Positions 23,896 to 38,768 of a stretch of 64,000 nucleotides of DNA are shown here, piece after piece. Each line of letters begins with the position of its first letter. The first letter of the stretch is position 1. The notes below the pieces were generated by a model that saw only the letters and a list, made by a program, of their open reading frames with translations, was not told the origin of the DNA and ran no database searches. The stretch covers positions 434,001 to 498,000 of the forward strand of contig NZ_WUWG01000001.1 in NCBI RefSeq assembly GCF_009833495.1. The letters are read 5' to 3'. This stretch comes from Oceanomicrobium pacificus (GTDB lineage Bacteria; Pseudomonadota; Alphaproteobacteria; Rhodobacterales; Rhodobacteraceae). The translations under genes and the position numbers were made by a program.

Positions 23896-25080
23896 TCAGG
23901 CCGCGTGATCGGCGATCAGCCGGTCGAGAAACGCGCCGCAAGCCGCCATCTGGGCGCGGGTGATGAACTCGTCGGGCTGGTGGGCCTGCGCGATCGACCC
24001 CGGCCCGCAGACAACGGTGCTGAAACCCGCCTCCTGGAACTGCCCCGCCTCGGTCGCGTAAGAGACGACGTTGCGGCTGTTGTCACCGGTCAGCCGCCGG
24101 GCCAGTTCCTCGGCCGCGCCGCCCTCTTCCGGCCGGCAGCCCGGAACGGTGGCATGCAGGTCGATCGAGACGCCTGTTTCGGGGTGGATGGCCTGCATCC
24201 GCGCCGCGACCCGCGCACATTCGGCGCGATATTTCGCCAGCAGATCGTCGATCCGGTCGGTCGGCACGGTCCGGATGTCGGTCGAGAAGGCACAATCGCG
24301 CGCGGTGATGTTGTGCGCGGTCCCGCCATGGATCTTGCCGACATGGAGCGTCGAGTAGGGCGGATCGAAATCCGCGTTGCCCGCAGCCATCGGCGCGGCG
24401 GCCAGCGCCGCCATCCGCGCTTCGAGCCATGTGATGAGGTGGGCGGCTTCCATGACCGCAGAGACGCCTTTGTGCACAAGCGAGCTGTGCACTTCGTAGC
24501 CGCGCAGATGCGTCGTCATTTCGGCAATGCCCTTATGCGCGCTGACCACGCGCATTTCTGTCGGCTCGCCCACGATCACCGCCCGCGCGGGCCCAAGGGC
24601 AGCCGCCATATGGGCGATCATCGGGGGCGCGCCGAGGCAGCCCACCTCCTCGTCATAGCTGAGCGCGATGCGGATCGGGCGGCGCAGACCGGCGGCGGCC
24701 ATGTCGGGCACCCGGCTCAGCACGCAGGCGAGAAACCCTTTCATGTCGCAGGCCCCGCGCCCGTAGAGCCGCCCGTCCCGCTCCACCAGCGTGAACGGAT
24801 CGGAGCTCCAGTCCTGCCCCTCCACCGGCACCACGTCGCTATGGGCTGACAGGACCGTCGCGCCGGGCAGGTCGGGGCCGATCTGGGTGTAGATCGCGGC
24901 TTTCTCGCCTGTCTCGTCGAGCACCCGCGTCGCGCTGATCCCGTGGCTGGCCAGATAGTCCTCCACATAGGCGATCAGGTCGAGATTGCTGCGGTCCGAA
25001 ACGGTTGGAAAGGCCACCAGATGGGCGAGCAACGCCGCCGCACGGGCATCGGGATCGGTCGGTGCGGATGAAGCAGGCAT
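23896..25080 (-). CDS. argE: Acetylornithine deacetylase
   Basis: This 394-residue M20 metallohydrolase is of the ArgE type and releases acetate from N-acetylornithine in arginine synthesis. The two zinc sites are visible: LSAHSDVVPVEGQDW (His about 85, Asp bridging), the catalytic EEVGCLGA (about 143) and the C-terminal GSIAQAHQPDEF. The start at 25080 fits family length (380-390). An N-terminal open extension is not conserved. It is followed immediately by the DUF3726 gene and is divergent from gltS. M20 paralogues acting on other N-acyl amino acids cannot be fully excluded. Confidence 0.87.
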   Translation of the reverse strand: MPASSAPTDPDARAAALLAHLVAFPTVSDRSNLDLIAYVEDYLASHGISATRVLDETGEKAAIYTQIGPDLPGATVLSAHSDVVPVEGQDWSSDPFTLVERDGRLYGRGACDMKGFLACVLSRVPDMAAAGLRRPIRIALSYDEEVGCLGAPPMIAHMAAALGPARAVIVGEPTEMRVVSAHKGIAEMTTHLRGYEVHSSLVHKGVSAVMEAAHLITWLEARMAALAAAPMAAGNADFDPPYSTLHVGKIHGGTAHNITARDCAFSTDIRTVPTDRIDDLLAKYRAECARVAARMQAIHPETGVSIDLHATVPGCRPEEGGAAEELARRLTGDNSRNVVSYATEAGQFQEAGFSTVVCGPGSIAQAHQPDEFITRAQMAACGAFLDRLIADHAA

Positions 25081-25255: not shown

Positions 25256-26452
25256 ATGACCGAATGGGTCGTGGACGATTTCATGGCGATGACGCTCGGG
25301 ATCGTCGTCTATTTCCTGGGCATCTGGCTGAACAGCCGGCTGGCCGTCCTGCGCCGCTTCACAATTCCTGCACCGGTCTCGGGCGGGCTTCTGACCGCTT
25401 TGGCGATGCTCGGCTTCTACCTTGTGACCGGCATCTCCGTCAGTTTCGAGATGGAAACGCGCGACCTGCTCCTGCTCTATTTTTTCTCCGCCATCGGGCT
25501 GAACGCCAAGGTGAGCGACCTGCTGGCGGGCGGCAAGGCGCTGGCGATCCTCGTCGGGCTGACGGTCACGTTCATCGTGGCGCAAAACATTGTCGGCATC
25601 ACCGTGATGGGCGTCTCGGGGCAGCCGCGCGAGCTTGGCGTCCTTGTCGGATCGGCGGCGCTTCTCGGCGGGCATGGCACGGCGATTGCATGGGCGCCCG
25701 AAGTGGCACGGCTCACCGGCGTGCCCAACGCGATGGAAATCGGCATCGCCGCCGCGACGCTCGGGCTGGTCGCAGCCAGCCTGATCGGCGGGCCCATTGC
25801 CACCTTCCTGATTGCACGGAACCGGCTCAACGGCCCGGACCTCGACCCGATCACCGAGGAACCGACAGCCCGTGGCGGGACCGACCGGGTGATTTCCGTC
25901 GACGATTTCTTCCGGGCGCTTCTGGCGCTCCATCTCGCGATCATCGCGGGGTCTTTCCTGAACGAGGCACTCGAATATGCGGGCATCCGCCTGCCGCTCT
26001 TCGTTTCCTGCCTGCTCTGCGCAATTCTCCTGTCCAACACGCTCGGGCGCTGGCTGCCGGCGTCCGGGCGGGCCGCGAACAGCCCGGCGCTCAATCTGGT
26101 CAGCCAATATTCGCTCGGCCTGTTCCTCAGCATGTCGCTGATGGCGATGCAGCTCTGGACCATTGCCGATCTGGCCGGGACCATGCTGATGGCAATCGGC
26201 GCGCAGGTCGTTATGACGGCCGCTTTCATCCTGCTGCTCGTCTATCCGCTGATGGGGCGCAACTATGATGCCGCGGTCCTGAGCGCCGGTTTCGGCGGGT
26301 TCGCCCTTGGCGCGACGCCGACAGCAATCGCCAACATGACTGCGGTGACAGAGAAGCACGGACCGGCGCCGCAGGCGTTCCTGATCCTGCCGCTGGTCTC
26401 CGCCTTCTTCGTGGACATCGCCAACGCGATTGTTCTGCAGGCGATACTTTAA
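25256..26452 (+). CDS. gltS: Sodium/glutamate symporter, GltS family
   Basis: This 398-residue secondary transporter is of the ESS (GltS) family with about ten transmembrane helices in two inverted halves. The family re-entrant-loop sequences GGHGTAIAW (about residues 140-148) and GFGGFALGATPTAIANM (about 345-361) are both present. It imports glutamate with sodium. A GGAGG ribosome site lies 7 bases before the ATG. It directly precedes a locus containing glutamate-related enzymes (a GS-like ligase and an N-formylglutamate amidohydrolase-like protein), which may not be accidental. Confidence 0.9.
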   Translation: MTEWVVDDFMAMTLGIVVYFLGIWLNSRLAVLRRFTIPAPVSGGLLTALAMLGFYLVTGISVSFEMETRDLLLLYFFSAIGLNAKVSDLLAGGKALAILVGLTVTFIVAQNIVGITVMGVSGQPRELGVLVGSAALLGGHGTAIAWAPEVARLTGVPNAMEIGIAAATLGLVAASLIGGPIATFLIARNRLNGPDLDPITEEPTARGGTDRVISVDDFFRALLALHLAIIAGSFLNEALEYAGIRLPLFVSCLLCAILLSNTLGRWLPASGRAANSPALNLVSQYSLGLFLSMSLMAMQLWTIADLAGTMLMAIGAQVVMTAAFILLLVYPLMGRNYDAAVLSAGFGGFALGATPTAIANMTAVTEKHGPAPQAFLILPLVSAFFVDIANAIVLQAIL

Positions 26453-26457
26453 TCCCG

Positions 26458-26482
26458 GAAAATTTTCGAAACGAAAGATTTC
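26458..26482. promoter_or_regulatory. Two GAAA-nn-TTTC dyads, putative RpiR operator
   Basis: A perfect 10-bp palindrome GAAAATTTTC (26458-26467) and a second dyad GAAAGATTTC (26473-26482) are centred 15 bp apart between gltS and the class V aminotransferase gene. Similar TGAAA/TTTCA arms occur in the divergent promoter region of the nearby rpiR gene. RpiR proteins bind such A/T-rich dyads, but binding here is inferred. Confidence 0.5.
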
Positions 26483-26582
26483 ATCCCAATAAATCGGCAA
26501 TCCCACCAATGTTTGGGACATGCTCTGCGCAGTCATGCGGCATTGTCGGGTCACCTGAACCCAGACTGCCCCGGAGACCCGC

Positions 26583-28064
26583 ATGCACCCCGAAGCCGCT
26601 ACCACATCCGACGCCCGCCCGCTCCTGAGCCGCATCCAGTCCGGCGTGATCGGCGAAGGCCGGATGCTCGACGGACCCTTCGGGCCGGTGCCTCTCACCT
26701 ATGCCGACTATACCGCGTCCGGCCGCGCGCTCGACATGATCGAGGATCACATCCGCGACGCGGTGCTGCCGCTCTATGCCAACACCCATTCGGAGGCGTC
26801 CCGCTGCGGTGCGGCGACCACGCGGCTGCGTGAAAGCGCCCGCGCCGAGATTGCGCGGATCGTCAATGCCGGGCCGCGCGACGCGGTGATTTTCACGGGC
26901 GCCGGCGCGACGGCTGCCGTCAACCGGCTGGTCGCCCTGTCGGGCCTGCGCGAAATGCTGGCCCGCGGACGCCGCGTGACCGTCTTCATCGGACCCTACG
27001 AGCATCACTCGAACATCCTGCCGTGGCGCGAATCGGGCGCAGAGGTTGTCGAGATTGCCGAATTGCCATCGGGCGGGCTCGATCAGGCGGCCTTGACCGC
27101 CGCACTTCTCGACCACAGCGACGCGGACCTGAAGATCGGCAGCTTTTCTGCGGCGTCCAACGTGACCGGCGTTCTCGAAGAGGTCGATGCCGTGACCCGC
27201 ATCCTGAAGGCACACGGCGCCCTGTCCTTCTGGGATTATGCGGCCGGTGCACCCTATCTGGAGATCGACATGAACCCGCCGGGGGCGGAAAAGGATGCCG
27301 TCTTCCTGTCGCCGCACAAGTTCGTCGGCGGCCCGGGCGCATCGGGCCTTCTGGTCGTGAAATCGGCCATTGCCCGGTCGCTGAAGCCCACCGCACCGGG
27401 CGGCGGCACGGTGACCTATGTCTCGCCCTGGGCGCATGACTATTCCAAGTCGCTCGAAGTGCGCGAGGAAGCCGGCACGCCCAACATCCTCGGTGATATC
27501 CGGGCAGCGCTGGCGCTTGGCCTGAAAGACCGGATCGGGCAGGCCGCGATCGACCGGCGCGAGGCGCAGTTGATGGCGCGGGCCAATGCGGTCTGGCAGC
27601 AGAATGCGCGGCTGGAGATTTTCGGCAGTGGCTACGCACACCGGCTGCCGATCTACTCGTTCCGCGTGCGTGACGGGGCCGGTGGCCATGTGCATCACCA
27701 GCTTTTCACCCGCATGCTGAGCGACCGCTACGGCATTCAGGTGCGCAGCGGCTGCGCCTGCGCCGGACCGTATGCGCATACGCTTCTCAGGCTCGGTCAG
27801 GATGTGTCCGAAGATATCCGCCGTGCCATCATGACCGGGGCAGAAGACCGCAAGCCCGGCTGGGTGCGGCTGAACCTCAGCTACGCGATGAGCGATGCCG
27901 CCGCCGAGCGCGTCATTGCAGCCGTGAACGAGTTGAGCCGCATCGCGCCCGCGCTTGCCGATGAGTACCGGTTCGACCCGCGCACGGCACGCTGGTCACA
28001 TCGTGCCGAGCCGCTGCGTGCGGATACCGGATTTGCCGAAGGGTTTTTTGCCAGCCTCGGCTGA
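26583..28064 (+). CDS. Class V aminotransferase (cysteine-desulfurase-like fold)
   Basis: This 493-residue PLP enzyme has the class V fold. It shows an EHHSNILPWRESGAEVV stretch (about residues 139-155) typical of SufS/CsdA relatives, a WDYAAGAPY segment and the PLP lysine in SPHKFVGGPGASG (about 246). A cysteine-rich VRSGCACAGPYAH element (about 382-394) sits where desulfurases carry their reactive Cys. It is about 90 residues longer than SufS and has no suf/isc genes nearby. It is convergent with rpiR and preceded by putative RpiR boxes. Aminotransferase, lyase or desulfurase activity is possible, and no substrate can be named. Confidence 0.75.
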   Translation: MHPEAATTSDARPLLSRIQSGVIGEGRMLDGPFGPVPLTYADYTASGRALDMIEDHIRDAVLPLYANTHSEASRCGAATTRLRESARAEIARIVNAGPRDAVIFTGAGATAAVNRLVALSGLREMLARGRRVTVFIGPYEHHSNILPWRESGAEVVEIAELPSGGLDQAALTAALLDHSDADLKIGSFSAASNVTGVLEEVDAVTRILKAHGALSFWDYAAGAPYLEIDMNPPGAEKDAVFLSPHKFVGGPGASGLLVVKSAIARSLKPTAPGGGTVTYVSPWAHDYSKSLEVREEAGTPNILGDIRAALALGLKDRIGQAAIDRREAQLMARANAVWQQNARLEIFGSGYAHRLPIYSFRVRDGAGGHVHHQLFTRMLSDRYGIQVRSGCACAGPYAHTLLRLGQDVSEDIRRAIMTGAEDRKPGWVRLNLSYAMSDAAAERVIAAVNELSRIAPALADEYRFDPRTARWSHRAEPLRADTGFAEGFFASLG

Positions 28065-28973
28065 TCAGACGAACTTGCGGAACATCTTGGTCTGGTCGAA
28101 CAGGTCCTCGAGCCGTTTGACCCGGTCGCGGCTGTCATCCCAGAGCCGGTTCTGGACCGCGGCGATGAGCGTCTCCACGACGGTCATCGTCACCACCGAA
28201 CTGTCCCAGGCGGATGGTGCTTCGATGCGGATGTTGAACGAAAATTCGGCATGCCGCGCGGCAGGTGACCCCCACTGGTCGGTCAGAAGGATGATGCGCA
28301 CGCCCTGTGCCTGCGCCATTTCCGCCAGTTTCAGGATGTCATGTTCGTAGCGGCGCACATCGAACATCACCAGCACATCGCCGGGCTGCATGTTCAGCAC
28401 ATAATGCGGCCAGGCGTTCGAGTTGCTCGCGACCAGCGTCACGCCGGGACGGATCACCTGCATATGGGTGAAGAAATAATCCGCCAGCGCGCGTGAGATG
28501 CGCCCGCCCACCACGTGAACGGCATGGGCTTCTTCGGCAAGCAGGTCGGCGGCCGCGTCGAACATCTTCGGGTCGAGCTGGGCCAGCGTCTGGCGCATGT
28601 TGGCCATCACCGCATCGGCAAACCGGTTGAGGATATGCGCGTCGGGCACATCCGTGGCCCAGCGGTCATGTTTCGCGATCGGATTGGAAATCGCCGCTTC
28701 CAGTTCCTGCCGCAACCGGGCCTGAAACTCCGGAAAGCCGGAACATCCGAGTTTCTTGACCATCCGCGCGACCGTCGGCGTGGACACTTTGGCATTGTCG
28801 GCCACGGTCGTGATGCTGCCGAGGCCGGAGACGGGATAGTTATCCAGAAGCGAATGGGCGAGCTGTTTTTCCGCCCGCGTCAGCGTCGGCATGAGGCTGC
28901 GGATCGCTTCCGATATGGTCTGTTCGCTGGCAATCTGGTCGCCTGTCACGGGTTCGCCTTCGCGTGGTTTCAC
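28065..28973 (-). CDS. RpiR/MurR-family transcriptional regulator
   Basis: This 302-residue regulator has an N-terminal HTH_6 domain (about residues 20-95, with TVADNAKVSTPTVARMVKKLG as the recognition region) and a C-terminal SIS domain (about 125-260). SIS domains usually bind sugar phosphates, although RpiR proteins in TRAP and amino-acid loci respond to other ligands. It is divergent from the catabolic operon that starts at 29104, with several TGAAA dyads between. It is convergent with the class V aminotransferase, their stops abutting. It probably represses both flanking units. Confidence 0.88.
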   Translation of the reverse strand: MKPREGEPVTGDQIASEQTISEAIRSLMPTLTRAEKQLAHSLLDNYPVSGLGSITTVADNAKVSTPTVARMVKKLGCSGFPEFQARLRQELEAAISNPIAKHDRWATDVPDAHILNRFADAVMANMRQTLAQLDPKMFDAAADLLAEEAHAVHVVGGRISRALADYFFTHMQVIRPGVTLVASNSNAWPHYVLNMQPGDVLVMFDVRRYEHDILKLAEMAQAQGVRIILLTDQWGSPAARHAEFSFNIRIEAPSAWDSSVVTMTVVETLIAAVQNRLWDDSRDRVKRLEDLFDQTKMFRKFV

Positions 28974-29010
28974 CCCAGAAGCGTCGACCCGAAGTGCACG
29001 GATGTCAAAT

Positions 29011-29047
29011 ATTTTTCACTTGCCTGAAAAATGTAATGAAAGTTTCA
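29011..29047. promoter_or_regulatory. Inverted TGAAA repeats in the rpiR divergent region
   Basis: ATTTTTCA (29011-29018) and TGAAAAAT (29025-29032) form a perfect 8-bp inverted repeat. TGAAAGTTTCA (29037-29047) is a second, odd-centred palindrome. Both lie in the 130-bp gap between rpiR and the downstream operon. A TTGACA-like element follows at 29056-29061. They are good candidates for RpiR operators. Confidence 0.55.
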
Positions 29048-29103
29048 GAAACCAATTGACACCGGCACCCCGGCTGAAGAAACCTGCGGGCGAAAGGGAC
29101 AGC

Positions 29104-29955
29104 ATGCGCGGAATGGACAGCCAGAAAGCGAACCACGGCCTGCTCGGTCGCGGGGACCCGCCACCGGTGCAGATCGTGCGCCAGACGGGGCGCGCGCCGG
29201 TCCTGCTCGTCTGCGAACATGCGGGCCGCAAGATCCCGGCCGCGCTGGGCGATCTGGGCCTGTCGGCCGAAGCCCGGATGAGCCATGTGGCCTGGGACCC
29301 GGGCGCGATGGCGCTGGCACAGGACCTGTCGGCCATGCTCGACGCGCCCCTCGTCGCACAGAGCTATTCGCGGCTCGTCTATGACTGCAACCGGCCGCCC
29401 GAGTCGCCCGAGGCGATGCGGGCACATAGCGAAATCCATGCCGTGCCCGGCAATGCACATCTTGGCGCCGAGGACCGCGAGGCGCGGATTGCCGAGGTGT
29501 ACCGTCCGTTCGAGGCCGCGGTCGGCGCCGCCGCCGAACGGATCGCCGCCGCCCACAAGACCCCGCTTCTTGTCACCGTGCACAGTTTCACACCGGTCTA
29601 TGACGGCGCGCCGCGCGAGGTCGAGATCGGCATCCTCCATGATGCGGACAGCCGTGCAGCGGACCTGATGCTGGCCCATGACTGGCAGGGCCGGATCGTG
29701 CGCCGCAACGCGCCCTACGGACCGGAAGACGGCGTGACCCATACGCTCCTGCGCCACGCGCTGCCGCGCCGCCTGCCCAACGTGATGCTGGAGGTCCGCA
29801 ACGACCTCTTGGGCGATGCCGATGCGGTTTATGCCATGGCCGGGCTGATCGCGCCTGCGCTCGCCGCCGCGCAAGCGGCCCTCACTGCCACAGCTGCCGC
29901 CAAGGCGCCGCCGACGCGTCAGGACAGCCCGTCACCGGAGCCTGGAAATGCCTGA
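29104..29955 (+). CDS. N-formylglutamate amidohydrolase-like protein
   Basis: This 283-residue enzyme is of the FGase (HutG-like) fold. LVCEHAGRKIPAALGDLG (about residues 33-50), VTVHSFTPVYDG (about 156-167) and LEVRNDLL (about 222) match the family metal and substrate motifs. Known members release formate from N-formyl-glutamate in histidine breakdown. No other hut gene is present. It leads an operon with a TRAP importer and a glutamine-synthetase-like ligase, so it may hydrolyse a different N-acyl or gamma-glutamyl compound. Its last eight bases overlap the dctQ-type gene. The C-terminal 25 residues are Ala/Thr/Pro-rich. Confidence 0.82.
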   Translation: MRGMDSQKANHGLLGRGDPPPVQIVRQTGRAPVLLVCEHAGRKIPAALGDLGLSAEARMSHVAWDPGAMALAQDLSAMLDAPLVAQSYSRLVYDCNRPPESPEAMRAHSEIHAVPGNAHLGAEDREARIAEVYRPFEAAVGAAAERIAAAHKTPLLVTVHSFTPVYDGAPREVEIGILHDADSRAADLMLAHDWQGRIVRRNAPYGPEDGVTHTLLRHALPRRLPNVMLEVRNDLLGDADAVYAMAGLIAPALAAAQAALTATAAAKAPPTRQDSPSPEPGNA

Positions 29956-30454
29956 GTGGATCAAGAGCTATGTCCGCGTGGCCGAGCGCGTGAACCGCGC
30001 CGTGGGCCGGGCCGCGATGTATCTGATCTTCGTGATGATGGGCATCCTGCTCTACTCCTCGATCTCCAAGACCTTCTTCGTCCCCTCGCTCTGGACGCTG
30101 GAGATGGCGCAGTTCACCATGGTCGCCTACTACATTCTCGGCGGCCCCTATTCGCTGCAGCTTGGCAGCAATGTGCGGATGGACCTGCTCTATGGCAGCT
30201 GGTCGGACCGGACCAAGGCCTGGGCGGATGCGATCACCATCCTGTGCCTGATCTTCTATCTTGTCGTGCTGCTCTATGGCGGCCTGACCTCGACCGCCTA
30301 TGCGCTTGAATATGGCGAGCGCAGCTATTCGGCATGGCGGCCCTACATGGCGCCCATCAAGATCGTGATGTGTGTCGGAATATTCCTGATGATCCTGCAG
30401 GCGTTCGCCGTCTTCTTCCGGGACATCGCCAAGATCCGCGGAGACGAGATCTGA
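29948..30454 (+). CDS. TRAP transporter small permease (DctQ type)
   Basis: This 168-residue inner-membrane protein has four predicted helices, as in DctQ subunits, and the typical WTLEMAQFTMVAYYILGGPYSL segment (about residues 50-70). It pairs with the DctM-type subunit encoded next, whose ATG overlaps its stop by one base (TGATG). It is part of a complete TRAP importer with the DctP-type protein at 31864. These systems use sodium gradients to import organic acids, amino acids or similar solutes. Confidence 0.9.
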   Translation: MPEWIKSYVRVAERVNRAVGRAAMYLIFVMMGILLYSSISKTFFVPSLWTLEMAQFTMVAYYILGGPYSLQLGSNVRMDLLYGSWSDRTKAWADAITILCLIFYLVVLLYGGLTSTAYALEYGERSYSAWRPYMAPIKIVMCVGIFLMILQAFAVFFRDIAKIRGDEI

Positions 30455-31776
30455 TGTCCTACGAGATGATCGCCCTTCTGATGTTCGCATCGATGATGCT
30501 GATGATGATGACCGGCCAGCGGGTCTTTGCCGCGATCGGGTTCGTCGGCACCGGCGCGGCGCTCCTGCTCTGGGGCACCGGTGGCGGGGATATTCCCTTC
30601 ACCGCCGCGATGAAGCTGATGAAATGGTATCCGCTGCTGACGCTGCCGCTCTTCATCTATATGGGCTACATCCTGTCGGAGAGCCGGATTGCCGACGATC
30701 TCTACAAGATGTTCCATGTCTGGATGGGGCCGCTCAACGGCGGTCTGGCGATCGGGACGATCGGGCTGATGGTGCTGATCTCGGCCATGAACGGCCTGTC
30801 GGTGGCGGGCATGGCGATCGGCGCCACCATTGCGCTGCCCGAGCTTCTGCGCCGCGGCTATGACAAGCGGATGGTGACCGGCGTCATACAGGCGGGCTCG
30901 TCACTCGGCATCCTCGTGCCACCGTCCGTCGTGCTGGTCCTTTATGCAATGATCGCGCGCCAGCCGGTCGGCCAGCTCTGGCTCGCGGGCGTCTTCCCGG
31001 GCCTGATGATGGCGACGCTCTTCATCCTCTATATCGTGATCCGCTGCCGCATCCAGCCGGAGCTTGGCCCCGCCCTGCCGCCCGAGGAACGCAATGTGCC
31101 TCTGTCGGAGAAGCTGCGCCTGCTGCGCGCGGGCCTTCTGCCGATCATCATCTTCGCCTCGATGATGGTGCCCTTCGTCAACGGCTGGACCTCGCTGGTG
31201 GAAAGCTCGGCCATCGGGGCGCTGACCGCGACCATCGCGGCCATCGTCAAGCGCCGCCTGACGCGGGAGGTGTTCGAGACCACCGTCCGCCAGACGCTCG
31301 CGATATCCTGCATGTTCATGTGGATTATCCTTGCTGCGCTCTGTTTCGGCGCCGTCTTCGACGGGCTGGGTGCGGTGCGCGCGATCGAGGGCTTCTTCCT
31401 CGACCGGCTCGGACTCGGCCCGTGGGAAGTGCTGATCCTGATGCAGCTGAGCTACCTGATCATGGGCACCTTCCTCGATGATACGGCGATGCTGGTGATC
31501 GTGGCCCCGCTCTATGTGCCGCTTGTCGGCGCGCTCGGCTTTGATCTGATCTGGTATGGCGTGCTCTACACGATCACCTGCCAGATTGCCTACATGACCC
31601 CGCCATTTGGCTATAACCTCTTCCTGATGCGCGCCATGGCGCCGTCGGAAGTGAGTTTGGGCGACATCTACCGGTCCATCGTGCCTTTCGTGCTGGTGAT
31701 GCTGCTCGGGCTGGTGCTGGTCACCGTCTTTCCGCAGATCGCGCTCTGGCTGCCGGAGACCGTCTATGGAAAATAA
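30454..31776 (+). CDS. TRAP transporter large permease (DctM type)
   Basis: This 440-residue protein of the DctM/ion-transporter superfamily has about twelve hydrophobic segments. Family features include the early GLSVAGMAIGATIALPELLRRGYDKRM region (about residues 113-138) and the conserved QAGSSLGILVPPSVVL loop (about 144-159). A DDTAMLVIVAPLYVP segment marks the second half. The start at 30454 is fixed by the one-base overlap with the small permease stop. It forms the transport core of the locus. Confidence 0.92.
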   Translation: MSYEMIALLMFASMMLMMMTGQRVFAAIGFVGTGAALLLWGTGGGDIPFTAAMKLMKWYPLLTLPLFIYMGYILSESRIADDLYKMFHVWMGPLNGGLAIGTIGLMVLISAMNGLSVAGMAIGATIALPELLRRGYDKRMVTGVIQAGSSLGILVPPSVVLVLYAMIARQPVGQLWLAGVFPGLMMATLFILYIVIRCRIQPELGPALPPEERNVPLSEKLRLLRAGLLPIIIFASMMVPFVNGWTSLVESSAIGALTATIAAIVKRRLTREVFETTVRQTLAISCMFMWIILAALCFGAVFDGLGAVRAIEGFFLDRLGLGPWEVLILMQLSYLIMGTFLDDTAMLVIVAPLYVPLVGALGFDLIWYGVLYTITCQIAYMTPPFGYNLFLMRAMAPSEVSLGDIYRSIVPFVLVMLLGLVLVTVFPQIALWLPETVYGK

Positions 31777-31863
31777 GAGGCAGCCCGGCACGGACCGGAG
31801 CCGCCCGACAAGGAGGATCGACGCAATCCCCGGGGGCGACCCCACCCAACAAGGAGAGTAAAA

Positions 31864-32898
31864 ATGACCAACAGACGTCAATTCCTGAAAACCGCCGGGA
31901 TCGCCGGCGCCGCCACGCTGGCCGCTCCGGCGGTGCACAGCCAGTCCGTCATCAAGTGGCGCATGCAGACCTATGCCGGCCCGGCGCTGGCCGAGCATGT
32001 GGTCAAGCCCGCCATCGACAGCTTCAACAAGGTCGCCGAAGGGCAGATGGAAATCGAGCTCTACTATGCCGACCAGCTGGTGCCGACGGGCGAACTGTTC
32101 CGCGCCATGCAGCGCGGCACGATCGACGCGGTGCAGTCCGATGATGACAGCATGGCCTCGCCGACCGAAGTGACCGTGTTCGGCGGCTATTTCCCCTTCG
32201 CCAGCCGCTACTCGCTCGACGTGCCGGTGCTCTTCAACCAGTGGGGTCTGGGCGAGATCTGGGACGAGGAATATTCCAAGGTCGGTGTGAAGCACCTGTC
32301 AGCCGGCGCATGGGATCCGTGCCACTTCGCCACCAAGGACCCGATCAACTCGCTGGAGGACCTGAAGGGCAAGCGCGTCTTCACCTTCCCGACCGCGGGC
32401 CGGTTCCTCAGCCAGTTCGGCGTGGTGCCTGTCACCCTGCCGTGGGAAGATATCGAGGTGGCCGTGCAGACGGGCGAGCTTGACGGCATCGCCTGGTCGG
32501 GGATCACCGAGGATTACACGGTCGGCTGGGCCGACGTGACCAACTACTTCCTCACCAACAACATCTCCGGCGCATGGTGCGGCTCCTTCTTCGCCAACAT
32601 GGACCGGTACGAGGAGCTTCCCGAGCATCTGAAGGAACTGCTCAAGCTGACCATGGACAGCTCGCACTATTACCGCCAGCACTGGTACTGGGGTGGCGAG
32701 GCAAAACTGCGCACCGAAGGCACCAAGATGGAACTGACCACTATCCCCGACGAGGAATGGGCACAGGTCGAATCGGCTGCCAAAGTGTTCTGGGACGAGA
32801 TCGCCGCGGAAAGCGAAACCAAAGCGAAGATCGTGCAGATCCTGAAGGACTACAACGCCTCGATGGAAAAAGCCGGCCGCCCGTACCGCTACTCCTGA
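31864..32898 (+). CDS. TRAP transporter substrate-binding protein with Tat-type signal
   Basis: This 344-residue periplasmic binding protein carries a twin-arginine signal (RRQFLKTAG, residues 4-12) followed by a hydrophobic stretch and probable cleavage near Ala-Val-His-Ser (about 30). The mature part resembles the TakP-like TRAP binding proteins that bind 2-oxoacids or related carboxylates (WRMQTYAG start, YADQLVPTGELFRAMQRGTID, HYYRQHWYWGGEAKLR near residue 275). An AAGGAG ribosome site precedes the ATG. The ligand cannot be deduced and is the key unknown of this locus. Confidence 0.88.
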   Translation: MTNRRQFLKTAGIAGAATLAAPAVHSQSVIKWRMQTYAGPALAEHVVKPAIDSFNKVAEGQMEIELYYADQLVPTGELFRAMQRGTIDAVQSDDDSMASPTEVTVFGGYFPFASRYSLDVPVLFNQWGLGEIWDEEYSKVGVKHLSAGAWDPCHFATKDPINSLEDLKGKRVFTFPTAGRFLSQFGVVPVTLPWEDIEVAVQTGELDGIAWSGITEDYTVGWADVTNYFLTNNISGAWCGSFFANMDRYEELPEHLKELLKLTMDSSHYYRQHWYWGGEAKLRTEGTKMELTTIPDEEWAQVESAAKVFWDEIAAESETKAKIVQILKDYNASMEKAGRPYRYS

Positions 32899-32956
32899 CG
32901 GGCAGCCTTGCACCCCCACGTCTGCGATGGCGGGGGCGCGAAGGCACCACAGCAAC

Positions 32957-32984
32957 CGGAGGTCCGGCCTTGGCCGGGCCTCCG
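32957..32984 (+). terminator. Stem-loop after the TRAP binding-protein gene
   Basis: A 13-bp stem (CGGAGG-T-CCGGCC pairing with GGCCGG-G-CCTCCG, one T-G pair) with a two-base loop lies 59 bases past the binding-protein stop and 55 bases before the GS-like gene. There is no T-tract. It probably acts as a partial terminator or mRNA protector that favours binding-protein output. Confidence 0.5.
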
Positions 32985-33038
32985 CACCGAACGGTTCCGA
33001 TGCGGGACCCATACCGACCCTGACAAGCGAGACAATCC

Positions 33039-34409
33039 ATGACCGGCACCCTGACTCTGGACACGTTGAAAGCGGCCGCAGCCGCGGGCGAGATCGATAC
33101 GGTGCTCGTCTGCCAGGTCGACATGCAGGGCCGGCTGATGGGCAAGCGGTTCCACGTGCAGAACTTCCTCGATACGGGCCACGAGGAAACCCACAGCTGC
33201 AACTATCTGCTTGCCACCGACCTGCCGATGGAAACCGTGCAGGGCTACAAGTCCACCAGCTGGGAATCGGGCTATGGCGACTATGTGATGAAGCCCGACC
33301 TGTCCACGCTGCGCCGCCTGCCATGGCTGGACGGCACGGCCATGGTCCTGTGCGACATGCTCGACCATCACAGCCACCAGCCGGTGCCCCATTCGCCGCG
33401 CCAGATGCTGAAGCGTCAGATCGCGCGGCTCGCCGACATGGGCATGAAACCCATGATGGCGACCGAGCTTGAATTCTACCTGTTCCGCGAAAGCTTCGAG
33501 CAACTGTTCGACAACGGCTATCGCGACATGACGCCGCTCAGCATGTTCAATCAGGATTACGCGATCCACCTGACCACACGCGAAGATGCCGTGATGCGCG
33601 ACATCCGCAACGGGCTTTTCGGCGCCGGTATCCCGGTGGAAAACTCCAAAGGCGAAGCCTATGCCGGGCAGGAGGAAATCAACATCCGCTATGCCGCCGC
33701 GCTCGATACGGCGGACTTCCATACGATCGTCAAGACCGCCTGCAAGGACATTGCGTGGCAGCATGGTCGCGCCGTCACCTTCATGGCGAAATATGACACC
33801 GAGGTCGCCGGCTCTTCGAGCCATGTGCACCAGTCGCTCTGGTCCGACGACGGGCGCACGCCGCTGTTCCATGACCCGGACGGCCGGTTCGGCATGTCGA
33901 AACTGATGGAACATTATGTGGCGGGCCTGCTGAAACATGCGGCCGCCAACACATGGTTCCTCGCGCCCTATGCCAACAGCTACAAGCGCTTCACCACTGG
34001 CCTTTTCGCGCCGACCAAGGCGATCTGGTCGAACGACAACCGCACTGCTGGCTTCCGCCTCTGCGGGGAGAATTCCAAGGCGATCCGCATCGAATGCCGG
34101 ATCGGCGGCGCCGATCTGAACCCCTATCTGGCGCTGGCCACCCAGCTGGCCGCCGGGATCGACGGGATCGAGCAGGAATTGGCGCTTGAAGAGCCCCATT
34201 CGGGCGACGCATATGAAGCACGGGACGTGCGCGAGATTCCCGGCACCCTGCGGGATGCCACCGTCGCGTTGGACCGGTCCGACATGTTGCGCGCCGCTTT
34301 CGGCGACGATGTGATCGACCATTATGTCCATGCGGCGCGCTGGGAACAGGCAGAGACCGACCGCACGGTCACGGATTGGGACCGGCTGCGCGGCTTTGAC
34401 CGCGGCTGA
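33039..34409 (+). CDS. Glutamine-synthetase-family gamma-glutamyl ligase
   Basis: This 456-residue GS-fold enzyme has the N-terminal beta-grasp part (about 15-115) and the catalytic ATP-grasp-like domain with MATELEFYLFRE (about 141), GQEEINIRYAAAL (about 210) and the SSHVHQSLW metal/ATP motif (about 263). It lacks the C-terminal adenylylation-loop pattern of housekeeping GlnA. Such relatives (PuuA, IpuC, GlnA4-type) link glutamate to amines such as putrescine, isopropylamine or ethanolamine. With the aldehyde and alcohol dehydrogenases that follow, a gamma-glutamyl amine or amino alcohol is the likely product. The amine is not known. Confidence 0.82.
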   Translation: MTGTLTLDTLKAAAAAGEIDTVLVCQVDMQGRLMGKRFHVQNFLDTGHEETHSCNYLLATDLPMETVQGYKSTSWESGYGDYVMKPDLSTLRRLPWLDGTAMVLCDMLDHHSHQPVPHSPRQMLKRQIARLADMGMKPMMATELEFYLFRESFEQLFDNGYRDMTPLSMFNQDYAIHLTTREDAVMRDIRNGLFGAGIPVENSKGEAYAGQEEINIRYAAALDTADFHTIVKTACKDIAWQHGRAVTFMAKYDTEVAGSSSHVHQSLWSDDGRTPLFHDPDGRFGMSKLMEHYVAGLLKHAAANTWFLAPYANSYKRFTTGLFAPTKAIWSNDNRTAGFRLCGENSKAIRIECRIGGADLNPYLALATQLAAGIDGIEQELALEEPHSGDAYEARDVREIPGTLRDATVALDRSDMLRAAFGDDVIDHYVHAARWEQAETDRTVTDWDRLRGFDRG

Positions 34410-34483
34410 CCCCGACCGACATTAATTAAAGACCGCCGTCTGCCTGCACATGTCAGGCATCCGGCCCATCCAGGACTGTCACC

Positions 34484-35872
34484 ATGACCAAGACCATCAC
34501 CTGCATTTCTCCCGTTGACGGCAGCGTCTTTGCCGAACGGCCCGCCTTGCCCTTCGACGAGGCCGCCGCCGCGATTGCGGATTGCCGCGCCGCCCAGAAA
34601 GAATGGGCCGCCCGCCCGCTGGCCGACCGTGTCGCGCTCGTGAACAAGGGCGTCGCGCGGCTGGTCGAGATGACCGATGAGGCCGTGCCTGAAATTGCCC
34701 GCATGATGGGCCGCCCGGTCCGCTATGGCGGCGAGTTCGGCGGCGTTGTCGAGCGTGCCGACTATATGGGCGAGATCGCGGCCGAGGCGCTCGCCCCCAT
34801 CGTGATCGAGAAGAGCGACCAGTTCGAGCGCCGGATCATCCGCGAACCGCATGGCGTGGTCTTCGTGGTGGCGCCGTGGAACTACCCCTATCTCACCGCG
34901 ATCAACACCGTCGCACCGGCGCTCATTGCGGGCAATGTGGTCGTCATCAAACATGCCAGCCAGACGCTTCTGGCGGGCGAGCGAATGGTGCAGGCCTTTA
35001 CCGAAGCCGGCGTGCCGGAAGATGTGTTCATCAACCTCTTCCTCGACCATGAGACCACGTCTGCGCTGATCGGCGCACGGGCTTTCGACTTCATCAACTT
35101 CACCGGCTCTGTCGGTGGCGGTCAGGCGATGGAGCGCGCGGCGGCAGGCACCTTCACCCCGCTCGGGCTGGAGCTTGGCGGCAAGGACCCGGCCTATGTG
35201 ATGGAGGATGCCGATCTCGACGCGGCCGTGGCCACGCTCGTGGATGCCGGCATGTACAATTCCGGCCAGTGCTGCTGCGGGATCGAGCGGATCTATGTCC
35301 ACGAGTCGCTCTATGACGCATTCGTCGAGAAGGCCGTGGCCACCGTGTCTGACTACAAGCTTGGCAATCCGCTCGACGAGGCAACGACGCTCGGCCCGAT
35401 GGCCCACAAGCGGTTCGCGGCCGAGGTGCGCGCGCAGGTGGCCGAAGCCGTGGCTGATGGCGCAACGGCGATGATCGACCCCGCGCTTTTCCCCGAAGAT
35501 GATGGCGGTGCCTATCTGATGCCGCAGGTCCTGACCGGCGTGACCCATGACATGCGGGTCATGCGCGACGAGAGCTTCGGCCCGGTTTTCGGCATCATGA
35601 AAGTGTCGAACGATGACGAGGCACTGGAGCTGATGAACGACTGCCAATACGGGCTGACCGCGTCGCTCTGGACGCAGGATGCCGCGCGCGCCGCCGCGAT
35701 CGGCGCACAGATCGAGACCGGCACCGTCTTCATGAACCGCGCCGACTATCTCGACCCTGCGCTCTGCTGGACCGGTTGCAAGGATACCGGCCGCGGCGGC
35801 TCGCTGTCGGTCATCGGGTTCCAGAACCTCACCCGTCCGAAATCCTATCACCTGAAGAAAGTCACCGCATGA
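34484..35872 (+). CDS. NAD(P)-dependent aldehyde dehydrogenase
   Basis: This 462-residue ALDH-superfamily enzyme shows the cofactor segment VAPWNYPY (about residues 126-133), the general-base motif LELGGKDPAYV (about 228) and the catalytic cysteine in NSGQCCCGIERIYV (about 260), which here is one of three consecutive Cys. PSxGPVxxI-like substrate residues appear near 375. It oxidises an aldehyde to its acid and probably follows the alcohol dehydrogenase encoded next, whose ATG overlaps its TGA by four bases. The aldehyde is likely made by that neighbour. Confidence 0.9.
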   Translation: MTKTITCISPVDGSVFAERPALPFDEAAAAIADCRAAQKEWAARPLADRVALVNKGVARLVEMTDEAVPEIARMMGRPVRYGGEFGGVVERADYMGEIAAEALAPIVIEKSDQFERRIIREPHGVVFVVAPWNYPYLTAINTVAPALIAGNVVVIKHASQTLLAGERMVQAFTEAGVPEDVFINLFLDHETTSALIGARAFDFINFTGSVGGGQAMERAAAGTFTPLGLELGGKDPAYVMEDADLDAAVATLVDAGMYNSGQCCCGIERIYVHESLYDAFVEKAVATVSDYKLGNPLDEATTLGPMAHKRFAAEVRAQVAEAVADGATAMIDPALFPEDDGGAYLMPQVLTGVTHDMRVMRDESFGPVFGIMKVSNDDEALELMNDCQYGLTASLWTQDAARAAAIGAQIETGTVFMNRADYLDPALCWTGCKDTGRGGSLSVIGFQNLTRPKSYHLKKVTA

Positions 35873-37014
35873 ATCTGGTCGGAAACTGGTCCTATCCCAC
35901 CGCCATCCGCTTCGGCGCGGGGCGGATCAAGGAACTGGGCGATGCCTGCAAGGCCGCAGGCATCTCCAACCCGCTCTTTGTCACCGACAGGGGGCTTGCG
36001 AGCCTTCCGGTCACCGCCACCGCGCTCGACATTCTCGACGCGGCAGGCCTTGGGCGTGCGCTCTTCTCCGAGGTCGACCCGAACCCGAACGAGAAGAACC
36101 TCGCCGCCGGTGTCGCCGCCTTCAAGGCGGGCGGGCATGACGGCGTCGTGGCTTTCGGCGGCGGCTCGGGGCTCGACCTTGGGAAAGCGGTCGCCTTCAT
36201 GGCCGGCCAGACCCGCCCGGTCTGGGATTTCGAGGATGTGGACGACTGGTGGACGCGCGCGAATGCTGACGCGATTGCCCCGATTATCGCTGTGCCGACC
36301 ACGGCGGGGACCGGCTCGGAAGTGGGGCGCGCCAGCGTCATCACCAATTCCGAAACCCATGTGAAGAAGATCATCTTCCACCCCAAATTCCTGCCCACCA
36401 TCGTCATCGCCGACCCCGAACTGACGGTCGGCATGCCGAAGGCGATCACCGCAGGCACGGGCATGGACGCGTTTGCCCATTGTCTGGAAGCCTTCTCTTC
36501 CCCCATCTACCATCCGATGAGCCAGGGCATCGCGCTTGAGGGGATGCGGCTCGTGAAGGAGAACCTGTCCCGCGCCTTCGCCGACGGGACAGACCTGGAG
36601 GCGCGCGCCCACATGATGAGCGCAGCCGCGATGGGCGCCGTGGCATTCCAGAAGGGGCTGGGTGCGGTGCACGCGCTCTCGCATCCCGTGGGTGCGGTCT
36701 ACAACACCCATCACGGCACGACCAATGCCGTCGTCATTCCGCCGGTGCTGCGCTTCAACCGGCCCGCGATCGAGGACCGGATTGCGCAGGCTGCAGCCTA
36801 TCTGGGCATCGCGGGCGGGTTTGACGGGTTCTACGACTATGTCGTGGCGCTGAATGCGGAGCTTGGCATTCCGGACCGGCTCGCCGCGCTCGGCGTGGGC
36901 ACCGACCGGATCGACGAAATGGCCGCCATGGCCATCGAGGACCCGAGCGCCGGCGGCAACCCGGTCGAGCTGACGCTCGACGCGGCGCGCGACCTGTTCA
37001 AGGCGTCGATCTGA
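35869..37014 (+). CDS. Iron-containing alcohol dehydrogenase
   Basis: This 381-residue group III (Fe-dependent) dehydrogenase has GGGSGLDLGKAVAF (about residues 95-108, NAD binding), VPTTAGTGSEVG (about 140) and metal-binding histidines in GMDAFAHCLEAF (about 198) and AVHALSHPVGAVYNTHHG (about 263-280). It interconverts an alcohol and aldehyde, and is the last gene of the putative amine/amino-alcohol operon. The start at 35869 is fixed by the ATGA overlap with the aldehyde dehydrogenase gene. A GC hairpin follows the stop. Confidence 0.92.
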   Translation: MNLVGNWSYPTAIRFGAGRIKELGDACKAAGISNPLFVTDRGLASLPVTATALDILDAAGLGRALFSEVDPNPNEKNLAAGVAAFKAGGHDGVVAFGGGSGLDLGKAVAFMAGQTRPVWDFEDVDDWWTRANADAIAPIIAVPTTAGTGSEVGRASVITNSETHVKKIIFHPKFLPTIVIADPELTVGMPKAITAGTGMDAFAHCLEAFSSPIYHPMSQGIALEGMRLVKENLSRAFADGTDLEARAHMMSAAAMGAVAFQKGLGAVHALSHPVGAVYNTHHGTTNAVVIPPVLRFNRPAIEDRIAQAAAYLGIAGGFDGFYDYVVALNAELGIPDRLAALGVGTDRIDEMAAMAIEDPSAGGNPVELTLDAARDLFKASI

Positions 37015-37023
37015 CCGACATGC

Positions 37024-37046
37024 GCCGGGGCCGTTCAGGCCCCGGC
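37024..37046. terminator. GC hairpin between convergent alcohol dehydrogenase and SulP genes
   Basis: A perfect 9-bp stem (GCCGGGGCC / GGCCCCGGC) with a 5-base loop starts 10 bases after the alcohol dehydrogenase stop and overlaps the last codons of the SulP gene. No T-tract is present. It may limit read-through in both directions. Confidence 0.4.
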
Positions 37047-38768
37047 CAGTTTCAGGTCGGGCGCACCGGCCGCACCCAGCCGTGTCACGGCCTCATGCTG
37101 CGACAGGAAGACCTGCCCGCTCAGATGTGACAGGAAATCCGTCCGCTCCAGCCGGTCCATCACCGGGCCCTTGACCTCCGACAGGTGCAGGCGGATGCCG
37201 GCATCCTGCAAACGGTGGTCGATCATCTCGAGGCTCTCGAGCGCGGAACTGTCGATGAAGTTCACCGCCGAACACATGAGCACCACGTCGCGCAACGCGG
37301 GGTCGGCCGCGGCGGCATCGTTGACCAGATCCTCCAGATAGCGCGCATTCGGGAAATAGAGGCTTTCGTCGACGCGGATCGACAGCAGGCCCGGCACGGT
37401 CTCCACCTTGTGACGCGCCACATTGCGGAAATGCTCGGTCCCCGGCACCCGGCCAACCACGGCGTGATGCGGGCGCGAGGTGCGCCAGAGATAGAGGATC
37501 AGCGACAGGACCACGCCCGCCAGAATGCCCGCCTCGACCCCGATCCCGAGCGTCAGGAGGATCGTCGCAAGCATGGCCGAGAAATCGGCCTTGGAATAGA
37601 CCCACGTCCGCTTGAGCGCTCCGAGGTCGACGAGCGTCAGCACCGCCACGATGATGGTGGCCGCGAGCGTCGCCTTCGGCAGGAAGAAGAGGAGCGGCGT
37701 CAGGAACAGCGTCGCGAGCGCCATGCCTACGGCCGCGAAAGCCCCAGCAGCGGGCGTCTGCGCGCCGGCGTCGAAATTGACCACCGAGCGGGAAAAGCCG
37801 CCAGTGACCGGAAACCCGCCCGACAGGGCCGAGCCGATGTTGGACGCCCCGAGCGCCACCAGTTCCTGATCGGGATCGATCCGCTGGCGCCGCTTTGCGG
37901 CGAGCGTCTGGGCCACGGAGACGCTTTCCACATAGCCCACGACCGAGATCAGGAGCGCCGGCACCGCAAGATCGCGCCAGAGCGCCACATCGAGCGGCGG
38001 CAGGGCCGGGGTCGGCAGGCCGGACGGCACGTCGCCCACAATCGCCACGCCGCGCGCATCGAGCCCCAGCATCCAGACAAGCCCGGTCGTCACGATCACC
38101 GCCAGCACCGGACCGGCCTTGGCCAGTCCGCCGGCCATCGCGTCAGACAGGCCGAACCGCATCAGGAGCGGTTTCAGCGCACCGCGCACCCAGACAAGGA
38201 ACAGCACGGCCCCGCCGCCGATGGCGAGTGTCGGCAGGTTGATGTCGCCGAGATGCGCGATCAGGTCGCCGCCCAGTTCGATCAGGGAATGGCCGTGGGC
38301 AGAGATGCCCATGATATGGGCCAGCTGGCTCGCCGCGATCAGCAGACCGGAGGCAGAGATGAAGCCCGAGATGACCGGGTGGCTGAGGAAGTTTGCCAGA
38401 AAGCCCAGCCGCAACATGCCCATCACCGCGAGCATCAGGCCCGAAAGAGCCGCCAGCGCAATGGCCGCGCCCAGATATTCGGGCGTGCCGGTGGCCACGA
38501 GGTTGCCGACCGCCGCCGCTGTCATCAGCGACACGACCGCGACCGGCCCCACGGCCAGCGTCCGCGAGGTGCCGAAGATGGCATAGAGCAGGAGCGGCGC
38601 GATCGAGGCATAGAGCCCGACTTCCGCGGGCAGACCCGCGAGCAGCGCATAGGCCAGCGATTGCGGGATCAGCATGATCGTAACGATGAGCGCGGCCATC
38701 GCGTCCTGCGCGAAGGCGGGCCGGTTGTAGCCCGGCGCCCAGTCGAGGATGGGAAAGAAACGGCGCAT
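37035..38768 (-). CDS. SulP-family anion transporter with STAS domain
   Basis: This 577-residue SLC26/SulP transporter has about fourteen membrane segments in residues 25-430 with the family start MLIPQSLAYALLAGLPAEVGLYAS (about 37-60). The C-terminal STAS domain (about 450-560) carries the FIDSSALESLEM loop. SulP proteins move sulfate, bicarbonate or other anions. As the last gene of the sulfur-oxidation cluster beginning at 41043, sulfate or sulfite/thiosulfate transport is the most likely job. A 117-bp gap with a strong GC hairpin separates it from the preceding sulfurtransferase gene. Confidence 0.88.
   Translation of the reverse strand: MRRFFPILDWAPGYNRPAFAQDAMAALIVTIMLIPQSLAYALLAGLPAEVGLYASIAPLLLYAIFGTSRTLAVGPVAVVSLMTAAAVGNLVATGTPEYLGAAIALAALSGLMLAVMGMLRLGFLANFLSHPVISGFISASGLLIAASQLAHIMGISAHGHSLIELGGDLIAHLGDINLPTLAIGGGAVLFLVWVRGALKPLLMRFGLSDAMAGGLAKAGPVLAVIVTTGLVWMLGLDARGVAIVGDVPSGLPTPALPPLDVALWRDLAVPALLISVVGYVESVSVAQTLAAKRRQRIDPDQELVALGASNIGSALSGGFPVTGGFSRSVVNFDAGAQTPAAGAFAAVGMALATLFLTPLLFFLPKATLAATIIVAVLTLVDLGALKRTWVYSKADFSAMLATILLTLGIGVEAGILAGVVLSLILYLWRTSRPHHAVVGRVPGTEHFRNVARHKVETVPGLLSIRVDESLYFPNARYLEDLVNDAAAADPALRDVVLMCSAVNFIDSSALESLEMIDHRLQDAGIRLHLSEVKGPVMDRLERTDFLSHLSGQVFLSQHEAVTRLGAAGAPDLKLAGA

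Follow-up and report, generated by a model that had tools for sequence, protein, structure and literature searches.

A run of genes on one strand of the window (the whole 64,000-nucleotide stretch of Oceanomicrobium pacificus DNA that was analysed) combines a TRAP importer with a ligase of the glutamine synthetase (GS) fold, an aldehyde dehydrogenase (ALDH), an iron alcohol dehydrogenase (Fe-ADH), and a hydrolase of the N-formylglutamate amidohydrolase (FGase) family, which raises the question of what compound this gene set imports and degrades, and whether the route is a new one. A sequence-only reading had placed the importer (29948-32898) in one run with these enzymes. Coordinates, family assignments, and spacing bear this out: every gene that it named has an open frame that lies in or close to the expected place and belongs to the expected family (Table 1). 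Neighbouring genes overlap (FGase/EtoV by 8 bases, EtoV/EtoW by 1, ALDH/Fe-ADH by 4), and the remaining gaps within the plus-strand run are 87, 140, and 74 bases long. Given such close spacing and overlaps, the seven plus-strand genes look like one transcription unit, which faces away from a divergent RpiR-family regulator gene across ~130 bases. No RNA family reached its gathering score between positions 25000 and 39000, and no tRNA was found in the window.

Table 1. Features of the locus, in window coordinates.
Feature	Position	Strand	Basis
GltS, sodium/glutamate symporter	25256-26452		377.3 bits, over the curated cut-off of 310.75
Class V aminotransferase-fold protein	26583-28064	+	Open frame, family search
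MurR/RpiR-family regulator, divergent from operon	28065-28973	-	PF01418 and PF01380
Divergent promoter region	28974-29103		Sequence
FGase-family hydrolase, proposed gamma-glutamylglycine amidohydrolase (GGAH)	29104 (or 29113)-29955	+	PF05013, E 3e-42
EtoV, TRAP small permease, DctQ	29948-30454	+	PF04290
EtoW, TRAP large permease, DctM	30454-31776	+	PF06808
EtoX, TRAP solute-binding protein, DctP, Tat-type signal	31864-32898	+	4uab/4xf5, E 5.7e-182
GS-fold ligase, Gln-synt_C, proposed ethanolamine gamma-glutamylase (ETAGA)	33039-34409	+	PF00120
Aldehyde dehydrogenase, proposed gamma-glutamylacetaldehydeamide dehydrogenase	34484-35872	+	PF00171, position as in the MED193 cluster
Iron alcohol dehydrogenase, proposed gamma-glutamylethanolamide dehydrogenase	35869-37014	+	PF00465/PF25137, position as in the MED193 cluster
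Long downstream ORF on the opposite strand, read as SulP-type transporter	37035-38768		Reading without family search

The unit is very probably a known etoVWX-type ethanolamine operon, that is, an ordinary further copy of a system that has already been described. The published operon of Phaeobacter sp. MED193 comprises genes for RpiR, GGAH, EtoV, EtoW, EtoX, ETAGA, GAADDH, and GETADH (Westermann et al. 2023, PMC10132767), the last three standing for ethanolamine gamma-glutamylase, gamma-glutamylacetaldehydeamide dehydrogenase, and gamma-glutamylethanolamide dehydrogenase. According to the same paper, five operon proteins were raised on phosphorylethanolamine (its Table 2), and MED193 EtoX binds ethanolamine with a Kd of 7.9 uM. 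The table also gives EtoX as raised under plain phosphorus lack; induction is therefore not by ethanolamine alone. Gene set and order in the window (RpiR-GGAH-EtoV-EtoW-EtoX-ligase-ALDH-FeADH) match the etoVWX type. The sequence-only reading knew of no described pathway with exactly this gene set, a statement that has to be given up, since the set is shown in the MED193 paper and the FGase-family step is proposed in a paper on Streptomyces (PMC6529630).

EtoX had 4uab/4xf5 as its top PDB match (E 5.7e-182, with the runner-up at 4e-15), and 256 of 319 aligned residues were identical to those of the Csal_0678 chain. Entry 4UAB is described as the crystal structure of Csal_0678 of Chromohalobacter salexigens with ethanolamine, in which a glutamate forms a platform for both the amine and the hydroxyl of the ligand (PMC12410723), and Csal_0678 is reported to be without the arginine that usually holds the carboxylate in TRAP proteins (PMC4646407). 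The EtoX stretch GELDGIAWSGITED is the same in the Csal_0678 chain. In an alignment of 81 sequences (the window and the best 80 of at least 589 relatives, chosen for similarity), the Glu of ITED was conserved in 81/81; in the same similarity-chosen set the position aligned to the carboxylate-binding Arg was, as we read the alignment, Phe in every sequence, in line with the reported absence of Arg in Csal_0678. The two Glu residues around the published Glu220 both fall within the stretch identical to Csal_0678; in the numbering of the PDB chain sequence, the published Glu220 comes closest to residue 217, for which a numbering offset is presumed. EtoX thus appears to contain the acidic platform residue, with its exact counterpart to Glu220 depending on the presumed offset, and can be assigned by sequence to the Csal_0678/EtoX group. 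The binding protein points to ethanolamine as the substrate, which is narrower than the amines, amino alcohols, and polyamines that had been proposed for the locus.

Conservation of the operon was studied in the best 80 of at least 589 relatives confirmed in genome contigs; 39 of these 80 loci were shorter than 18 kb, which lowers the counts, and 41 were 18 kb or longer. Matches were found to EtoX in 80 loci, EtoW in 78, EtoV in 72, the ligase in 56, FGase in 49, ALDH and Fe-ADH in 48 each, and RpiR in 45. All eight genes were consecutive and in the same order in 30/80 loci (24 of the 41 longer ones), where the count refers to consecutive matched genes irrespective of intervening ORFs that had no match. 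Co-occurrence was evaluated in a less similarity-biased sample, 61 genomes of the same family taken one per genus. Here, 34 genomes had EtoX (E 1e-100) and 35 had the ligase (E 1e-120); 30 genomes had both, 4 only EtoX, 5 only the ligase, and 22 neither (Fisher p = 4e-8). EtoX and ligase genes lay within 1 kb of each other in 24 of the 30 genomes with both, and in one of the four EtoX-only genomes the ligase was cut by a contig end. Because of the eight-gene order in 30/80 loci and the co-occurrence at p = 4e-8, grouping of the operon genes by chance is ruled out. The order itself can change, and in at least one relative (locus L016) the enzymes precede the transporter.

The genes that flank the operon behaved differently: at E 1e-15, class V aminotransferase, GltS, and SulP matched in 0 of the best 80 loci, 41 of which were at least 18 kb long. 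The aminotransferase and GltS were rejected as pathway members on this count, and both are probably bystanders. An RpiR regulator and a class V aminotransferase had been pointed out beside the operon; both are indeed present, but the aminotransferase does not accompany the operon in these loci. Its best match was to SufS-type cysteine desulfurases, far under the cut-off (149.7 vs 475.1 bits). GltS adjoins the operon but is not conserved with it.

The importer can be exchanged, as seen in five named plasmids that we chose from 20 listed of 682 records. The importer is of the TRAP type in the Paracoccus denitrificans and Qingshengfaniella plasmids, whereas an amino acid permease takes its place in the Sinorhizobium meliloti plasmid and an EamA transporter in that of Ruegeria conchae. 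On the conjugative plasmid pMET3 of Aminobacter sp. NyZ550 (L089, 6157-17359), an RpiR-FGase-ligase-ALDH-FeADH cluster, with no TRAP importer listed, adjoins bhcRABCD. The bhcABCD genes of this plasmid are annotated for glyoxylate catabolism, and their adjacency would suit glycine as the pathway product.

The same route might have another small amino alcohol (alaninol, serinol, or 1-amino-2-propanol) as its main natural substrate. The Csal_0678 sequence is found in a second PDB entry, 4xf5, which presumably holds 2-amino-1-propanol. Moreover, crystal structures of CqsR, an unrelated receptor for ethanolamine, were obtained with serinol and L-alaninol as well (PMC12410723), and ethanolamine sites can therefore be permissive. 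We nevertheless regard this alternative as quite improbable: MED193 EtoX has micromolar affinity for ethanolamine, the operon proteins rise on phosphorylethanolamine, and the passage reporting these data mentions no test of any further amino alcohol (PMC10132767).

A route for polyamines or methylamine, of the PuuA or GmaS type and served by a TRAP importer, would account for the GS fold and for the weak match of the ligase to the gamma-glutamylputrescine synthetase profile NF045547, but the 212.6 bits obtained are far short of the 650-bit cut-off for PuuA, the match to the structure of a glutamate-methylamine ligase (9qur) is a distant one (E 1.1e-40), and the binding protein is Csal_0678-like, so that this already disfavoured reading retains hardly any probability. 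The ligase had 5dm3 (E 1.8e-189), which we take to be the C. salexigens ligase, and 11zs (E 9.7e-183) as its top PDB matches, with the third at 2.4e-51. Going by family names only, one could also take the ligase for a plain glutamine synthetase and the hydrolase for the N-formylglutamate hydrolase of the histidine route, both being chance neighbours of the TRAP importer. Against this stand the scores of the ligase, which is under the cut-offs of both the type I glutamine synthetase GlnA (TIGR00653, 245.9 vs 429.15 bits) and the type III enzyme (TIGR03105, 231.9 vs 469.6 bits), and of the hydrolase, which is far under that of HutG (TIGR02017, 34.8 vs 278.75 bits). The source genome has three further GS proteins, one of which scores 448.8 bits on PF00120, and two further FGase proteins that score higher than the operon hydrolase (245.4 and 162.8 vs 146 bits). 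Since, in addition, gene order is conserved and EtoX and the ligase co-occur, we give this interpretation next to no credence. The sole solved relative of the hydrolase at E 0.001 was Atu2144 (2odf, E 1.5e-72). The ALDH was below the cut-offs of all 25 families listed of the 45 matched, and the Fe-ADH below those of all 15 NCBIfam families matched.

For an etoVWX-type ethanolamine operon, the most likely route leads from ethanolamine through gamma-glutamylethanolamide, the aldehyde derived from it, and gamma-glutamylglycine to glutamate and glycine. EtoX would bind periplasmic ethanolamine and EtoVW would import it; the GS-fold ligase would then use ATP to join ethanolamine and glutamate into gamma-glutamylethanolamide, the alcohol of which would be converted to an aldehyde by the Fe-ADH and on to gamma-glutamylglycine by the ALDH. 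The FGase-family hydrolase would split gamma-glutamylglycine into glycine and glutamate, the latter being recycled, and RpiR would control the divergent promoter. The substrates assigned to each enzyme are predictions that we draw from gene content, order, homology, and co-occurrence, all of which were observed here. The logic put forward in the sequence-only reading (an amino alcohol entering through a TRAP importer and being glutamylated by a GS relative, then oxidised by ADH and ALDH in turn, with FGase-type cleavage at the end) fits this evidence and is in the literature already. EutB (PF06751), the ammonia-lyase of the eut route, had no match in the source genome, which is 99.43% complete, while the E. 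coli control was positive; the eut (EutBC) ethanolamine ammonia-lyase route was not found there. Ethanolamine is a phospholipid head group, and the organism is one more bacterium that can probably draw nitrogen and carbon from it without EutB. Ethanolamine binding and induction are in print for relatives. For the pathway of C. salexigens and Agrobacterium tumefaciens, Westermann et al. cite Vetting et al. 2015 and call it demonstrated (PMC10132767), while the C. salexigens pathway is called predicted in silico in the Streptomyces paper (PMC6529630); the published enzyme assignments may therefore themselves be predictions in part.

RpiR is probably ethanolamine-responsive, ethanolamine being its presumed ligand. 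The divergent promoter region contains TTGACA at 29056-29061, with an 11-base palindrome, TGAAAGTTTCA, just upstream at 29037-29047, and the palindrome is a possible candidate for the RpiR operator. Among 12 regions picked by hand from 49, the window included, TTGAC was counted by eye in 12/12 and TTGACA in 9/12. The sequence GAAANTTTC was present in 7/49 regions, compared to 0.002 per shuffled region (shuffles kept base content only). The full palindrome and TGAAANTTTCA were each found in 1/49 regions, that of the window itself, and the related regions share GAAA/TTTC elements in part. One palindromic operator shared by all was rejected, the sharing being partial only; with TGAAANTTTCA in 1/49 and GAAANTTTC in 7/49 regions, no single operator is proved.

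One point against the reading as an etoVWX-type ethanolamine operon is that a nearby ligase was missing in 9 of the 41 etoX loci of at least 18 kb. Seven genomes were searched among those with etoX but without a ligase nearby: two had a close ligase elsewhere (62% and 56%), four had distant ones only (31-34%), and one had none at E 1e-50, while EutB was absent from all seven. A relative of the Fe-ADH was present in 9/12 etoX genomes without a nearby ligase (E 1e-60). An alternative ethanolamine route beside lone etoVWX genes was considered and dropped, as Pfam scans (E 1e-10) of 30 chosen neighbouring ORFs from nine loci gave nothing consistent; in one locus, L031, an ALDH (55% to the window ALDH) adjoins etoV.

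Of the five genomes that have etoVWX and lack a close ligase, three carry a GS ~30% identical to the window ligase near an ALDH (53-56%) and an Fe-ADH (57-63%) (L131, 1808-9312; L132, 8019-16140; L133, 5439-10317). Two of these distant-ligase clusters start with an FGase relative (~40%), and the third has a class I glutamine amidotransferase after the Fe-ADH. L131 further encodes a short-chain dehydrogenase and a protein with an FGE-sulfatase domain, and similarly sized ORFs occur in L132. At their etoVWX loci, the first two genomes retain RpiR and FGase (L013 and L005), and the third lacks them (L083). The pathway might be more modular than the cited papers describe, with two unlike ligase branches serving the same ethanolamine route and the hydrolase being an FGase in some bacteria and a class I glutamine amidotransferase in others. 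We consider this unlikely, and slightly more so than at the outset, because one genome holds both branches: the genome of L015 has the close ligase (L093) as well as a second-branch GS with an FGase and an Fe-ADH ~5 kb away. In addition, relatives of the second-branch GS (53-54% to the L131 GS) lie, on two plasmids, beside aminotransferases and importers annotated as being of the spermidine/putrescine type; a third region with such a relative, L148, carries no annotation. Together, the importer neighbours and the presence of both branches in the L015 genome suggest that the second-branch GS may have another substrate. If two branches do serve the route, this would matter for annotation, as the annotated records examined call such ligases simply glutamine synthetase.

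Among known systems, the putrescine route PuuABCD, which includes an amine oxidase step and hydrolysis by the amidase PuuD, has the glutamylate-oxidise-hydrolyse logic in common with the window pathway; in the latter, alcohol dehydrogenase replaces the amine oxidase and FGase replaces PuuD. The likeness to the C. salexigens Csal_0678 pathway lies in the binding protein (256/319 identical) and in the window ligase, which is closest to 5dm3. Ethanolamine and GlnA4 of Streptomyces are the subject of a 2019 paper in mBio, reportedly by Krysenko et al. For S. coelicolor GlnA4, the same chemistry was proposed there, with an FGase-family gamma-glutamylglycine amidohydrolase acting last (mBio 2019, PMC6529630), so that gamma-glutamylation, two oxidations, and this proposed amidohydrolase are shared with the window route. 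Unlike the window, the S. coelicolor cluster has no TRAP importer in its published legend, which names orf5 as a glutamine amidotransferase, and a short-chain dehydrogenase stands where the window has the Fe-ADH. Closest of all in gene content is the MED193 EtoVWX operon, which, compared by its printed gene set, agrees with the window in all eight genes and in their order; we noticed no difference in content from that list, from which the adjoining class V aminotransferase and gltS of the window are absent. The window operon adds no new principle to these systems.
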